Origin: a virus
DNA length: 21,730 bases
Direction: 5' to 3' (one strand)
IMG/VR virus record: IMGVR_UViG_3300006810_000469
Span: 1-21,730 of that record
Below are positions 32 to 19,835 of the stretch, in pieces. Below the pieces are notes generated by a model. The model was given only the letters and a program-made list of their open reading frames with translations, did no database searches and had not been told where the DNA came from. Numbering within the stretch: position 1 is the first letter of the stretch; every line of letters starts with the position of its first letter. A program made the translations under genes and the position numbers.

Positions 32-1051
32 ATGGCCCTGAATCTCTCAGATCTCACCAGTCCCTCAACATCCGATGATGTTCTGAGCGACATCTACACG
101 ACCGCGGATCAGGGTGACGGGATTGCGCTGATGGACGACCTCTCGCCCAACGACATCGACGCCACTCAGTCCACTGCGCTCCACCAACCAATCGCCTACG
201 TCAACTCAGCCGATGGCACGTTCGCCAGATTTGATGGCAGCGACGACCACATGTCGTTCACGCTGGCCGACCCGATCACAAATGGAACGGTGTTCTTCGC
301 GACCAAAAAAGGCAGCTACGCCGCCAACATTAACCTTGCGGCTGGCACACATAATTTTGATGGGAACAAGATTTCCACATATCACAGTTTTGCAAACGAT
401 CTGGTTGCTTTACTCTTGTTTGATTTCGTTTTGGGCCAATCGCAAATTGACCAACTAAAATCTTATTTTGTCGCTAAAGGTGCGGTTGAGGATTATGGGA
501 CGGAAACCTCTCTCGCTAACGCATGGTTTTTCGCTGAAAACCTTGTTAATTTCCCACCAATCAAAACTGGTCTTGTAACTGATTTTAATTTCACTTGGTC
601 TCAATGCAAAAATCTTATCAATTTTGCGTTAATAGACGTTTCTGCCGGAGAAAGTTTTATTGAAACTTGGAATAGATGCAAATTTGTTAGTTTTCCTGCC
701 ATTTCAATGGTGCATGGGAGACGTTTTGGTTTTGCTTGGCTTGCTTGCTCCAGTTTAGAAAATTTTCCATCTGGAGTTTTTGATAATTGGAATCCGGCTT
801 CTATATTTAGTGGTGTATTCAATGGCACATGGGGCGGCTGCACATCCCTCACCTCTCAATCCGTCGAGAACATCCTAACCTCGATCGACACGAGCGGGAA
901 ATGGGCGACCACCAACGGCACAAGCGGCGGAACAGCTCTAAATGATCCCGTGATTGATATCGACTATGATGGCAGCGGGCTGACACCTGCGACGACAGCC
1001 GCGATAACTAGCCTTCAAGGCAAAGGTTGGGGGATTAACATTAGTCCATAA
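32..1051 (+). CDS. Tail fibre / receptor-binding protein with DUF285-BspA-like repeats
   Basis: Predicted virion protein of 339 residues, probably exposed on a tail fibre and contacting the host surface. Residues about 50-150 resemble the LamG/concanavalin-like domains of phage fibres. Residues about 160-280 hold roughly five degenerate repeats of about 24 residues on the pattern AWxxCxSLxxFPxI followed by a G-containing turn (for example ETWNRCKFVSFPAI and AWLACSSLENFP), as in DUF285/BspA-type leucine-rich repeats. The tail SLTSQSVENILTSIDTSG is typical of the same family. The ATG at 32 was preferred to an in-frame TTG at 2 because it follows a likely upstream stop by two bases; the reading frame does open into the window edge. 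The repeat segment is much more AT-rich than its flanks, suggesting acquisition. The family assignment is pattern recognition, and the receptor is unknown. Confidence 0.7.
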   Translation: MALNLSDLTSPSTSDDVLSDIYTTADQGDGIALMDDLSPNDIDATQSTALHQPIAYVNSADGTFARFDGSDDHMSFTLADPITNGTVFFATKKGSYAANINLAAGTHNFDGNKISTYHSFANDLVALLLFDFVLGQSQIDQLKSYFVAKGAVEDYGTETSLANAWFFAENLVNFPPIKTGLVTDFNFTWSQCKNLINFALIDVSAGESFIETWNRCKFVSFPAISMVHGRRFGFAWLACSSLENFPSGVFDNWNPASIFSGVFNGTWGGCTSLTSQSVENILTSIDTSGKWATTNGTSGGTALNDPVIDIDYDGSGLTPATTAAITSLQGKGWGINISP

Positions 1052-6995: not shown

Positions 6996-7087
6996 TGTCA
7001 GAATCAGAATCAGAAGGATCAGCAAAGACGTCTTCGTCTGTCTCAGAGTCGATGTCCAGCGAAAGTTCAAGTTCAAGCGGATCGTGA
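6995..7087 (+). CDS. 30-residue serine-rich peptide gene
   Basis: An ATG at 6995 shares an A with the preceding TAA (TAATG), and the reading frame runs to a TGA at 7085-7087, which overlaps the GTG start of the next gene (GTGA). The product has 30 residues, 17 of them serine, with five glutamates, one threonine and one lysine; it begins MSESESEGSAKTSSS and ends in a five-serine run followed by GS. There is no hydrophobic segment. The stop and start overlaps on both sides argue that it is translated, though a short low-complexity frame can arise by chance. It lies directly before glycosyltransferase genes, so it may be a hydroxyl-rich acceptor, or simply a spacer that keeps ribosomes moving. 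Function unknown. Confidence 0.55.
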   Translation: MSESESEGSAKTSSSVSESMSSESSSSSGS

Positions 7088-7758
7088 AGAACTTAACCGA
7101 CTGGTTCGACCGCGTCTACGTGATTAACTGCCAGACACGACCCGACCGGCTACAGGAAACGAAAGACCACCTGTCCGAAACTAAAATGGCGGACATCGGA
7201 AAGGTCGTTTTTTACCCAGCTATTATCGGAAGCTGGACCACTGTTCCAGCTGACTGGCTTTCCGGTGAAGGCGCATGGGGTTGCCGAAACACGCACGCCC
7301 GCATTCTTGAAGACGTCATTCACACACGCAACGACGAAGGCGAGATGACCCTTAAAAATATTTTGATTCTTGAAGATGATGTTGTTTTCGTGGATAAAGC
7401 GCTGCAAAAGTTTAATGAGTTCATCGTGAACGTGCCCGTCGATTGGGGCCAAATCTATTTAGGCGGTCAGCACAGGGGCCGCAAACTTGAAACGGAACAT
7501 GACAACGTAATTGACGCAACCTCCATAAACCGCACACACGCCCATGCGATTAATAAACCGTATTATCAGCAAGTTTACCGGCATATCACTTATGCGTCGG
7601 ACTACAGGGGCAAGAAAAACCACCACGTTGACCACCAGCTTGAAGTCGCCCATCGGCGCGGAGACTGGCCCGTCTACTGCCCGAAAAAATGGTTGGTCGG
7701 ACAGCGTGCTGGAAAATCCGACATTAGCGGGAAAACAAACCCAACAAAATTTTGGTGA
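7084..7758 (+). CDS. Glycosyltransferase family 25-like protein (1)
   Basis: A 224-residue predicted glycosyltransferase of the GT25 (LPS/LOS biosynthesis) type. The N-terminal VYVINCQTRPDR (residues 11-22) matches the family's opening strand and Arg motif; GAWGCRNTHARILEDV (63-78) is the conserved GC-x3-H helix region; ILILEDDVVF (93-102) carries the acidic EDD motif expected to bind metal and sugar nucleotide. It would act in the host cytoplasm on a virion protein or a host glycan. The GTG start at 7084 overlaps the TGA of the serine-rich peptide. It is first of three transferases; the second shares the same motif layout and is probably an ancient duplicate. Donor and acceptor cannot be read from the sequence. 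Confidence 0.8.
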   Translation: MKNLTDWFDRVYVINCQTRPDRLQETKDHLSETKMADIGKVVFYPAIIGSWTTVPADWLSGEGAWGCRNTHARILEDVIHTRNDEGEMTLKNILILEDDVVFVDKALQKFNEFIVNVPVDWGQIYLGGQHRGRKLETEHDNVIDATSINRTHAHAINKPYYQQVYRHITYASDYRGKKNHHVDHQLEVAHRRGDWPVYCPKKWLVGQRAGKSDISGKTNPTKFW

Positions 7759-8402
7759 TGGCTGTTATTGACTTAGACGCAATACGAATTATCTCTTTGG
7801 AAGAGCGGACAGACAGGCGGGAGCAGTCTACCTCTGAGTTTCAAAAAGCTGTTGACGCCGGTATTTTTCCAGATATCAAACCAGAATTTGTTAACCGCCT
7901 TAAACCTGCTGGCTCTTTGTGGCCCGCAAGTTTTTCTGGTCACAGAGGCTATTATCAGGCGACATGCGAACACATCCGGATTCTCGAAGAGCTGTTCCAG
8001 AACAAAAAGGATCTTGCGCTTATTCTGGAAGACGACTTCGTGTTCACGAAGAGCTTCTTCGACCACTTCGAAACTTTTTGGCAGGAGATCCAAACGGACG
8101 CGCCAGACTGGCTTGCTTTATTCTTAGGTGGCACAGATCAAAACGGTCGGTCACCTATTAAGGGCACAACACAAGTCGCGCTTAATAAAGGATCTACCCG
8201 CAGCCACGCTTACATCGTGAACAGGGCAGGGATGTGGCGGTTGTATGACCATCTTTTCTGCGATAGGCGGGTAGTCGATTGGTCTTATGTGAACATGATG
8301 TCTTCGGACGCTTGCTGCTACTCACCATCTAAAGAGTGGTATGTGGAGACCAGAGAATCGTGGAGCAATAACAGGCAGTGCATCGCCAAATACGGATCAT
8401 GA
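7758..8402 (+). CDS. Glycosyltransferase family 25-like protein (2)
   Basis: A 214-residue predicted transferase with the same architecture as its upstream neighbour: IRIISLEERTDRR (9-21), GHRGYYQATCEHIRILEE (61-78, with YYQATCEHI where the first copy has GCRNTHARI) and ALILEDDFVF (87-96). LFLGG at 121-125 matches IYLGG of the first copy. Conservation of the acidic motif argues that both are active, although this copy lacks the GC before the helix. The ATG at 7758 shares a base with the previous TGA (TGATG); in-frame TTG (7752) and GTG (7755) codons just upstream are less likely starts. The two may act in sequence on one glycan. Confidence 0.75.
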   Translation: MAVIDLDAIRIISLEERTDRREQSTSEFQKAVDAGIFPDIKPEFVNRLKPAGSLWPASFSGHRGYYQATCEHIRILEELFQNKKDLALILEDDFVFTKSFFDHFETFWQEIQTDAPDWLALFLGGTDQNGRSPIKGTTQVALNKGSTRSHAYIVNRAGMWRLYDHLFCDRRVVDWSYVNMMSSDACCYSPSKEWYVETRESWSNNRQCIAKYGS

Positions 8403-9016
8403 ATATAGGACTCAGCTACAGCCTTTTCGGTGAAAATGAAAAATACTGGACTGGAATCGAGAAAAACTACCGGAAGATAAATAGTATCTATCCGGAGGCC
8501 ACGATGATTGTGCATACAGACGACCCGAAACGGGTGGCACAATTGTGCCCCAAAGCGGCTATCTTTGCACACCAGACGCCAGCTGACTTGGGGGGAACTT
8601 TCTGGCGCTTTCTATCCTACAACTGCGCGGACGCTGTCCTGTTTCGCGATGCCGATAGCTTAATCAACGTTCGAGAACGAGCTGCGGTAGATGAGTGGCT
8701 GGAATCGGGCTTAGGCTTACACGCCATGCTGGACCACGCTTCGCACACTAAATCTGAATGGCCTGTTCTGGCGGGTATGTGGGGGGCACGCAAAGACAGC
8801 ATTCCGTTTGACTTCAACCACCTAACCTTCTGGTGGCTGGCCAACAAGGGGAGCTTCAAATACACCTCTGACCAATGGTATCTTCGACGATACATTTGGC
8901 CACTTATAGTGAGTGGTGATGGCCTACTCCACAGCCGCTATCCGGCGCACAAATGGGGTGGGCTTGACTGGCCAAAACATCCCGAATATAACTCTTTTGT
9001 AGGATCAAGAATATGA
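8399..9016 (+). CDS. Putative glycosyltransferase with DxD motif
   Basis: A 205-residue protein opening with NIGLSYSLFG and an alpha/beta pattern like a GT-A nucleotide-sugar transferase. FRDADS at 82-87 supplies a DxD (D84, D86) after a hydrophobic strand, the usual place for metal and sugar-diphosphate binding; ATMIVHTDDP (35-43) resembles another Rossmann strand. It differs from the two GT25-like genes and probably belongs to another GT-A family, which I do not name. The ATG at 8399 overlaps the previous TGA (ATGA); a start at 8378 would extend into the previous gene. Operon position between transferases and a methyltransferase supports a role in the same modification. Confidence 0.65.
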   Translation: MNIGLSYSLFGENEKYWTGIEKNYRKINSIYPEATMIVHTDDPKRVAQLCPKAAIFAHQTPADLGGTFWRFLSYNCADAVLFRDADSLINVRERAAVDEWLESGLGLHAMLDHASHTKSEWPVLAGMWGARKDSIPFDFNHLTFWWLANKGSFKYTSDQWYLRRYIWPLIVSGDGLLHSRYPAHKWGGLDWPKHPEYNSFVGSRI

Positions 9017-9645
9017 AAGAGAACGAAGAAGTATTTGAAGACATTTATGTAAACCGTAAGTGGGGGTTTGGGCCGCGTTCTGGCGGTGGGTCCTCTCTTA
9101 ACCAGACTCGTGTTTTGGCAGAGCGCTTGCCAGAGTTGGTTTACAGTTTGGATCTTGAGAAGATTTTAGACTGCGGTTGCGGAGATTGGACATGGATGAA
9201 GAACGTCGATCTAAAAGGCGCAAAATACACCGGTCTCGACGTTTCGCCTTCAGCCATCGCGGACCTGCAGGCGAAGTTTCCAGACCGGAAATTCAAAGTG
9301 GCTGATATCTGCCGCGACAAACTTCCGAAAGCGGACCTCGCTCTCTGCCGCGATGTGCTGGTTCACTTGCCGTTTGACAATATTTGGGACTTCATTTCCA
9401 ATCTAAAAAGTAGTAAAATACGATATTTAGCCACAACCGCTTTCCCTTCCCGAACCCTGAACCGCGATTGTGAAACCGGAGACTGGCGGCCAATTAACTA
9501 CGAGATCGCCCCATTTAACTTCCCACTGCCTTTTTTGACCATCAACGAGCGTCTGGAAGCGCACGGCGGGCATTATCGGGACAAGTCCACCTGCATCTGG
9601 CACGTGGATAGCCTGCCTAGCCGACCATTGACTTTTGAGACGTAA
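9013..9645 (+). CDS. Class I SAM-dependent methyltransferase
   Basis: A 210-residue predicted methyltransferase with a full Rossmann-type SAM site: ILDCGCGDW (51-59, motif I), YTGLDVSPSAI (72-82, acidic end of strand 2), FKVADIC (94-100) and ALCRDVLVHLP (110-120, motif IV and helix). The layout resembles small-molecule or glycan methyltransferases (Methyltransf_11/25 type) rather than DNA methylases: no DPPY/NPPF or PC motif is seen. It overlaps the last transferase (ATGA) and ends the cassette, so O-methylation of the sugar added by the upstream enzymes is the simplest proposal. Methyl capping of glycans is known in other systems; here it is inferred from position only. Confidence 0.8.
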   Translation: MKENEEVFEDIYVNRKWGFGPRSGGGSSLNQTRVLAERLPELVYSLDLEKILDCGCGDWTWMKNVDLKGAKYTGLDVSPSAIADLQAKFPDRKFKVADICRDKLPKADLALCRDVLVHLPFDNIWDFISNLKSSKIRYLATTAFPSRTLNRDCETGDWRPINYEIAPFNFPLPFLTINERLEAHGGHYRDKSTCIWHVDSLPSRPLTFET

Positions 9646-10988: not shown

Positions 10989-11269
10989 TGCCAAAACGAG
11001 CACCACAGAAATCATTGGACAGCTGGACTCGCGAGAAGTGGGGGACCAAATCTGGCAAACCTTCGCTTGAGACTGGCGAGAGGTATTTACCAAAGGCCGC
11101 ACGCGATGCTCTTACTGATGAGGAGTATACCAGAACTTCGAGAAAGAAACGGGAAGGGATGCGCAAAGGCAAGCAGTTCGTCAAGCAGCCTAAGTCCATC
11201 GCGGAGAAGACCGCGAAATACCGTAGCAAGAAGAGGCTACTTCAATCAGCGCGTAAGCGCAAAGGATGA
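10988..11269 (+). CDS. Basic protein, DUF5872-like C-terminal half
   Basis: A 93-residue, very basic protein. SLDSWTREKWGTKSGKPSL (9-27), TGERYLPKAARDALTDEEY (29-47) and GKQFVKQPKSIAEKTAKYR (61-79) match the conserved blocks I recall from DUF5872-type phage and giant-virus proteins. The ATG at 10988 shares a base with the stop of the preceding gene and lies in the same frame, so only the TAA separates the two modules. A Lys/Arg-rich tail follows. It overlaps the nuclease gene by four bases (ATGA). It may bind nucleic acid in the virion or during packaging; that is inference from charge and position. Confidence 0.7.
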   Translation: MPKRAPQKSLDSWTREKWGTKSGKPSLETGERYLPKAARDALTDEEYTRTSRKKREGMRKGKQFVKQPKSIAEKTAKYRSKKRLLQSARKRKG

Positions 11270-17902: not shown

Positions 17903-18188
17903 AAGGCAGAATTGCTTTTACGGCGGACATCAAATCCTGATCATCGAAGTGGTAAAGTTCCGTGCCTTCGTTGGTTTCAACTTCAACACACGGTTTATCC
18001 CCTAAAGCGGTGCGTAGTGCTCTAACCGCCATCAGCATTTCTTCTTCATGTGCTTCGGTCAGTTCGAACCGTTGCTTGATCCACCGAACGGTTTTTCGGT
18101 AAACACGACGGATGAAAGACTCGCCGCAGAAGCTGTTCAAGACATCTTCTATCATGTTATCATCACGGATTTCTTTTCTGGTCCTCAT
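17895..18188 (-). CDS. Hypothetical phage protein (97 aa)
   Basis: I do not recognise this 97-residue protein. It is mostly helical in its first two thirds (with FIRRVYRKTVRWIKQRFELT and then EEEMLMAVRALRTALG), with a short beta-like and acidic end (VEVETNEGTELYHFDDQDLM). There is no membrane segment. It overlaps the DnaA-like gene by 26 bases upstream and the small 56-residue gene by eight bases downstream, so it is in the same transcript. Confidence 0.65.
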   Translation of the reverse strand: MRTRKEIRDDNMIEDVLNSFCGESFIRRVYRKTVRWIKQRFELTEAHEEEMLMAVRALRTALGDKPCVEVETNEGTELYHFDDQDLMSAVKAILPYV

Positions 18189-18534
18189 TTTTGTAGACGT
18201 TGATAATTCCGATAATGGTGTCTCTAAGGTCGTTGTCCGTCAAGACTCGCGGGTCCATACGTCGGCAAGCCGAAATCACCGCAGATGGGTGGCTGTATTC
18301 AAAATGGCGGCTGATAACAGAAAAGCTAAGTTTCAAGATCGACCGGAGCAAACTCATCGCAACGGCACGCGGCTCGCTGTGCTTTGGTGCCCGTGATTTG
18401 ATGTAGAGGTCGGATACTGGAATCCGATATTCATCTGCCACTGTCTGGATAAGGCGCTCTGCTTTGCGGCCTTTTTTCTGCGGGACGCCTCTAAAGGGCC
18501 TCACCCTGTTTGGTTCAATTACTGTTTCATTCAT
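18163..18534 (-). CDS. Stand-alone DnaA domain IV-like DNA-binding protein
   Basis: A 123-residue protein whose residues about 25-115 match the C-terminal DNA-binding domain of bacterial DnaA (Bac_DnaA_C, PF08299). LIQTVADEYRIPVSDLYIKS (28-47) corresponds to the family's opening helices, EPRAVAMSLLRSI (54-66) to the RQ-x-AM-x-L block, and ISRHFEYSHPSAVISACRRM (74-93) to the DnaA signature around GRDHTTVLHACRKI. It lacks the AAA+ ATPase and the DnaB-contact domain. It could bind DnaA boxes to recruit or block host initiation, or mark the phage origin. Only about 25 poorly conserved residues precede the domain. The start ATG lies five bases after the helicase fragment. Confidence 0.8.
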   Translation of the reverse strand: MNETVIEPNRVRPFRGVPQKKGRKAERLIQTVADEYRIPVSDLYIKSRAPKHSEPRAVAMSLLRSILKLSFSVISRHFEYSHPSAVISACRRMDPRVLTDNDLRDTIIGIINVYKNEDQKRNP

Positions 18535-18539
18535 TGTTT

Positions 18540-19157
18540 CTAAGAGTAGTGCAGCTTGCCCAAGTTCGCAAGTTTTTTCTCGATTGATTCAATAACTTTT
18601 TCCTCAATGGAATCGCAGGCCACCAGAATCTTCTGCAATGCATCGCTTTTAGCGCCATTGCGGTGGATGCGGCCCAGCGCCTGCAGGTGGTCTTTCGCAC
18701 TGAAAGAAGGTGATATCAGGCTGACACGGTTCCGTTTACCGTTTATGTCGTGCAGCGAGATACCGGTTCCGCCAGCTGCTATATTCACCACAAGAATGTG
18801 TTCTTTGTCCTCTTGAAAGGAATCAATGGCCTGCTGCCGTTCATCTGAATCCTGATCGCCGTAGATGCCACCACATTTCAGCTCTTCACGTAGGGCCTCT
18901 AATGTGTCTCGAAAGTTGACAAAGATCACCACGCTCTTGTTCTGATCAACCAGATCCTTTGCCATCTCTGCGATGTCCTTTACTTTGAAAGCTTCTGCGA
19001 GCTGTCGGGCGCGGAGCAGGTTGACAAGAACGTATTCACTGTCCTCAACAGTCCCGTTCTCAATCAGGTCTTCCACAATAGCGGGCGTGATACCCAATTC
19101 GTCATAGGCTTTTACGATCTTCGCTCGATTGGAAAAATTGACGGGTTCAACAATCAC
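18540..19157 (-). CDS. SNF2/SF2 helicase, C-terminal fragment (in-frame with upstream half)
   Basis: A 205-residue RecA-like second lobe. KSVVIFVNF, the block VVNIAAGGTGISLHD and QALGRIHRNGAK match SF2/SNF2 motifs IV, V and VI, with the arginine finger region in the last. Read alone it starts at a GTG (19157), seven bases after the TAA that ends the ATPase half. The two pieces are in the same frame, separated by TAA, AAT, CGA, and together make 432 codons, about the length I recall for single-chain phage helicases of this type. The fragment may be made by reinitiation, or the stop may be a mutation or error. Confidence 0.75.
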   Translation of the reverse strand: MIVEPVNFSNRAKIVKAYDELGITPAIVEDLIENGTVEDSEYVLVNLLRARQLAEAFKVKDIAEMAKDLVDQNKSVVIFVNFRDTLEALREELKCGGIYGDQDSDERQQAIDSFQEDKEHILVVNIAAGGTGISLHDINGKRNRVSLISPSFSAKDHLQALGRIHRNGAKSDALQKILVACDSIEEKVIESIEKKLANLGKLHYS

Positions 19158-19163
19158 TCGATT

Positions 19164-19835
19164 TTATTTGAAGGAATCCGGAAAGTCGGAGACGGTTAAG
19201 CGTTTGGCGACCACGCCATACATGTTCTTATGCAGGACACGTAGTTTGGATGCGTTCTTTAGTTCCCACTGGTTCCACATGTTTTGGATGCAGCCATATT
19301 GTTTCATCCAACCATACCAATTCGGATACGGGGGTTTGGATGAGTTTAGATTGTGCAAGCCCAGCGCGTAACCAATAGCCCGCATTTCAGTTGGGTCTTG
19401 TGACGCCGTTGCGGACATCATATGTACATTGAACTTTTGGGCAACAAGTGAGATAAGTAACTGAGCATTGATCGTATATGGCCCTTTGCATTTATGGCAT
19501 TCGTCAATGAACACCATTGTGTGTTCAGGCAAATTCCACTTCATGGATTTCTTGCCTCTCTTCGACATATACGGAGTGTTACCAGTGCGGATCTTTTCGT
19601 AGTTCAAAACGAATACGGGCTCAATGCCAAACTCTGCCAGCTCGCGTTGCCATGATGGGATAACCGCTTTCGGGCACAGCACTGCCACCGGTCGCTCTAA
19701 TGCGCGTGCGACATATGCCGCCACAATCGTCTTGCCAGTTCCGACATCGCTGGTGTCCAGCGTGTTTCGTCCGGTCGCGAGTGTGTTAATAAAAAAGGCG
19801 GCAGCTTCCTTCTGCTTCGGGTAAAGTGTTTTCAT
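19164..19835 (-). CDS. SNF2/SF2 helicase, N-terminal ATPase fragment
   Basis: A 223-residue first RecA lobe of an SF2 DNA helicase or translocase. LYPKQKEAA (4-12) resembles the Q-motif/motif I entry, SDVGTGKT (29-36) is Walker A, AVLCPKAVIPSWQRE (51-65) is motif Ia, VFIDECHK (108-115) is the DEAH-like Walker B, and HMMSATA (138-144) is motif III. The reading frame stops at TAA (19164-19166) exactly where the inter-lobe region would continue, and the second lobe follows in frame. Without it this half should bind ATP but not couple it to translocation. Probable role: fork restart or recombination, as in phage UvsW/SNF2-like proteins. No AGGAGG upstream. Confidence 0.8.
   Translation of the reverse strand: MKTLYPKQKEAAAFFINTLATGRNTLDTSDVGTGKTIVAAYVARALERPVAVLCPKAVIPSWQRELAEFGIEPVFVLNYEKIRTGNTPYMSKRGKKSMKWNLPEHTMVFIDECHKCKGPYTINAQLLISLVAQKFNVHMMSATASQDPTEMRAIGYALGLHNLNSSKPPYPNWYGWMKQYGCIQNMWNQWELKNASKLRVLHKNMYGVVAKRLTVSDFPDSFK

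Follow-up and report, generated by a model that had tools for sequence, protein, structure and literature searches.

A private in-frame TAA in a phage SF2/SNF2-like helicase gene is probably a one-base sequencing or assembly error

In the 21,730-nucleotide stretch of viral DNA analyzed here (the window; IMG/VR record IMGVR_UViG_3300006810_000469), a helicase gene on the minus strand is interrupted by an in-frame TAA between its two lobes. This TAA is probably one base miscalled or misassembled in an ordinary phage SF2/SNF2-like helicase gene. A near-identical record carries an intact copy, the uninterrupted frame is conserved among relatives, and the differences between the two records look random. 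From these comparisons we infer that the change arose technically and is not a genuine rare allele: an error at one base during sequencing or assembly would have turned a sense codon in the inter-lobe linker into TAA, and the phage population most likely makes a single two-lobe helicase of 431 residues. Most likely, then, the window's gene is an ordinary, conserved helicase of phage in which one base makes a stop seen in this record alone, and no novel form of split helicase is involved. The case is a caution that one base in one metagenome contig can look like a split gene; most of that question is settled by comparing the contig with relatives and with a nearly identical record.

A two-lobe helicase in one reading frame

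The first part of the gene is an open reading frame that starts at the ATG at 19835 and ends at the TAA at 19166 to 19164 (codon 224), encoding 223 amino acids. It corresponds to lobe 1 (19167 to 19835, minus strand), which carries ATPase motifs I, II, and III and matches the Pfam DEAD/ResIII families (PF00270/PF04851). After the TAA come AAT CGA (19158 to 19163), encoding Asn225 and Arg226, and then a GTG at 19157, encoding Val227. This GTG is the first codon of lobe 2 (18540 to 19157), which carries motifs V and VI and matches Helicase_C (PF00271); from it the same frame stays open for 205 amino acids to the terminal TAG at 18542 to 18540. Both parts lie in one frame of 432 codons including the final stop, which when read through gives 431 amino acids. 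Conservation leaves no doubt that the two predicted lobes form one gene with a single interruption, and the frame, coordinates, and codon count given in a preliminary description of this DNA were confirmed.

The read-through protein contains GTGKT (residues 32 to 36), DECH (111 to 114), SAT (141 to 143), AGGTGIS (354 to 360), and QALGRIHRNG (385 to 394). Motifs I, II (DExx), III, V, and VI are thus all present on two RecA lobes, as in SF2 enzymes, and most motif residues are invariant across 35 relatives, including Asp111, Glu112, and His114 of motif II. Among PHROGs phage families the top match was phrog_62, DNA helicase (E value of 2e-51, residues 3 to 421). Like that SF2, SNF2-like phage helicase, the window's protein has two RecA lobes in one chain; it differs in the in-frame stop between the lobes, which the fetched relatives lack. 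An AlphaFold2 model, built from a 35-member alignment of relatives, had a mean pLDDT of 82 and a pTM of 0.69. When the model was compared with the PDB by Foldseek, the top 50 matches were SNF2-family remodellers or repair translocases (TMq of about 0.4 to 0.67), and profile searches also pointed to SWI2/SNF2 motors. The highest-ranking matches to the model were SWI2/SNF2 ATPase cores (PDB 1z63, 6k1p, and 8kcb; E values of about 1e-13 to 1e-14); in sequence, such cores match lobe 2, and the whole chain matches 1z63 weakly. Unlike them, the window's protein is a minimal core of 431 residues, with 14 to 20% identity and no accessory domains seen. As predicted from sequence and model, the gene product is a minimal SNF2-like SF2 helicase of phage. 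The earlier label "SNF2-type" is borne out by the fold and by motif VI, although the Pfam SNF2 model PF00176 (SNF2-rel_dom) matches just 6 of the 35 family members (best E value of 2e-5) and does not match the window's own protein. In the model, residue 224 (the stop) lies just ahead of the first strand after lobe 1, within a predicted linker of low confidence (residues 221 to 230, pLDDT of about 60).

The stop site in relatives and in a near-identical record

Two scans of IMG/VR yielded 102 distinct homologous genes. The alignment of homologues at the site, which the preliminary description had proposed as a check, showed no internal stop in any of the 102; the codon there was a sense codon in every one (GCG, GAG, AAG, GAT, GAA, GAC, AAC, CAG, GCT, GCA, AAT, or ATG). 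Asn225 and Arg226 were invariant in all 102, indicating that AAT CGA is conserved coding sequence and not a spacer. Val occupied residue 227 in 96 of the homologues and Ile in the other 6; hence, the GTG at 19157, put forward earlier as a possible start, encodes a conserved residue and gives no evidence of initiation. On this alignment, the mid-gene stop is a trait of this one record and not of the helicase family. Among isolated phages, a nucleotide search gave no match, and the relatives recovered by a protein search did not exceed 39% identity; lobe 2 had no relative in the bacterial genomes scanned.

A near-twin of the window was found in IMG/VR record IMGVR_UViG_3300025853_000224 (40,247 bp), which spans window positions 150 to 21730 and differs from it by 12 substitutions but no indels across the 21,581 bases aligned. 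Its codon at the site is GAA in place of TAA, and, with the stop taken as Glu, the two 431-residue helicases are identical throughout. The single-base change suggested beforehand, with GAA to TAA as the example, is accordingly the difference seen. A pattern search of IMG/VR with the changed base left free matched the near-twin as the sole record, and the TAA version occurred in none of the records searched, a set that left out the window's own. The twin's sample number, for which a literature search gave no hit, falls in what we take to be the JGI range for re-assemblies of older read sets, and the two records might share reads.

Five of the 12 substitutions are clustered at 940 to 946 (plus strand), in a stretch otherwise 99.9% identical; this cluster looks like local real sequence diversity or recombination. 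The remaining seven are isolated. Six of these change the protein (A/S, V/G, P/S, C/G, K/N, and Glu/stop) and one is synonymous, and five of the seven are G:C<->T:A transversions. At position 1937, in an amidase-like gene, the window has Pro while the twin and three relatives of about 95% identity have Ser; in the gene at position 11038, the twin has Asn while the window has Lys, as do 75 of 80 relatives. At these two sites, the ones besides the stop that had informative relatives, the residue that departs from the consensus belongs to the window in one case and to the twin in the other, a pattern that errors in both records would produce. For the first gene, with a difference at 533, homologues were found in the twin only; further differences lie at 1483 and 4647.

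Error, real allele, or split helicase

To judge the isolated differences we used a comparison spectrum drawn from 14 close pairs of relatives that share no member, covering helicase genes only, in which 44 of 377 differences (12%) were protein changing and 73 (19%) were of the G/T type. Against these close-pair rates, the binomial probability was about 2e-5 for six protein-changing differences in seven and about 0.004 for five G:C<->T:A changes in seven, with the caveat that within-population polymorphism may hold more protein-changing variants than between-lineage divergence does. Random substitutions in these genes would be protein changing in 77% of cases and would include a stop in about 25% of sets of seven, so that one stop here, at about one random set in four, is unsurprising. 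Although the set is small (n = 7), the isolated differences have a random-looking, error-like pattern, and this pattern, together with the off-consensus changes in both records, favors a technical error.

Both a sequencing error and a recent nonsense mutation were among the options in the preliminary description, and these are now the two leading explanations. A recent, real nonsense mutation in one phage lineage, truncating the helicase after lobe 1, would equally be expected to appear as a one-base difference from an intact, near-identical phage in an otherwise intact frame. Such an allele would probably harm the phage and not last long, or else be tolerated because helicases of the host, or other phage helicases, stand in for the missing one. 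However, the isolated differences that accompany the stop show an error-like spectrum, and the gene is intact in all 102 distinct relatives, which indicates that loss of the helicase is not commonly fixed. We therefore consider a real nonsense allele unlikely, if still deserving of weight.

Two further options raised earlier, by which the stop would be functional, fared worse. Reinitiation at the GTG at 19157 would give two polypeptides assembling as a two-subunit helicase, and the position of the stop in a linker modeled as flexible, the immediate resumption of the frame, and a GTG only 6 bases past the stop speak for such an arrangement. Ribosome-binding (Shine-Dalgarno) strength at this GTG is at background, as it is for most window genes, and is neutral on the point. 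Against reinitiation, a start at this conserved Val/Ile codon would lose the invariant Asn-Arg, none of the 102 distinct homologues has its lobes as separate genes, and the stop is private to the window's record; we regard it as highly improbable. Readthrough of the stop or reassignment of TAA would account for a frame open on both sides of the codon, and nothing else speaks for it. Seven further predicted genes of the window end in TAA, in keeping with the earlier view that reassignment was unlikely because TAA ends many genes; neither a recurrent in-frame TAA nor a suppressor tRNA was found, with only the one TAA seen and no tRNA gene detected in either the twin record or the window, and relatives show nothing similar at the site. 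Readthrough or reassignment is, in our judgment, exceedingly improbable. A real, functional stop would make this a naturally split SNF2-like motor, for which we found no support here; that a real phage lineage makes its helicase as two polypeptides, or by readthrough, via a freshly acquired inter-lobe stop is very hard to credit. The reading that best fits these data is still a base error in an intact gene.

Gene neighborhood and other features of the window

The helicase lies within a phage replication module with PolA, a DUF2800 nuclease, and a RuvC-like gene, the last named from sequence alone. Among 80 fetched relatives, homologues of the RuvC-like gene occur near the helicase in 75 and those of the DUF2800 gene in 60. 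Directly downstream of the helicase, at 18163 to 18534 (minus strand), is a stand-alone gene taken up for the most part by a DnaA domain IV DNA-binding module (PF08299, E value of 2e-14), with homologues near the helicase in 29 of the 80.

Elsewhere, two adjacent, mutually similar genes at 7084 to 8402 and 9013 to 9645 (plus strand) lie amid other phage genes. The first of the pair has a weak match, below the Pfam cutoff, to glycosyltransferase family 25, and a SAM methyltransferase was also noted with these genes. Across the whole window, a Shine-Dalgarno-like leader is not above background for most predicted genes, a hint that the host depends little on such leaders.
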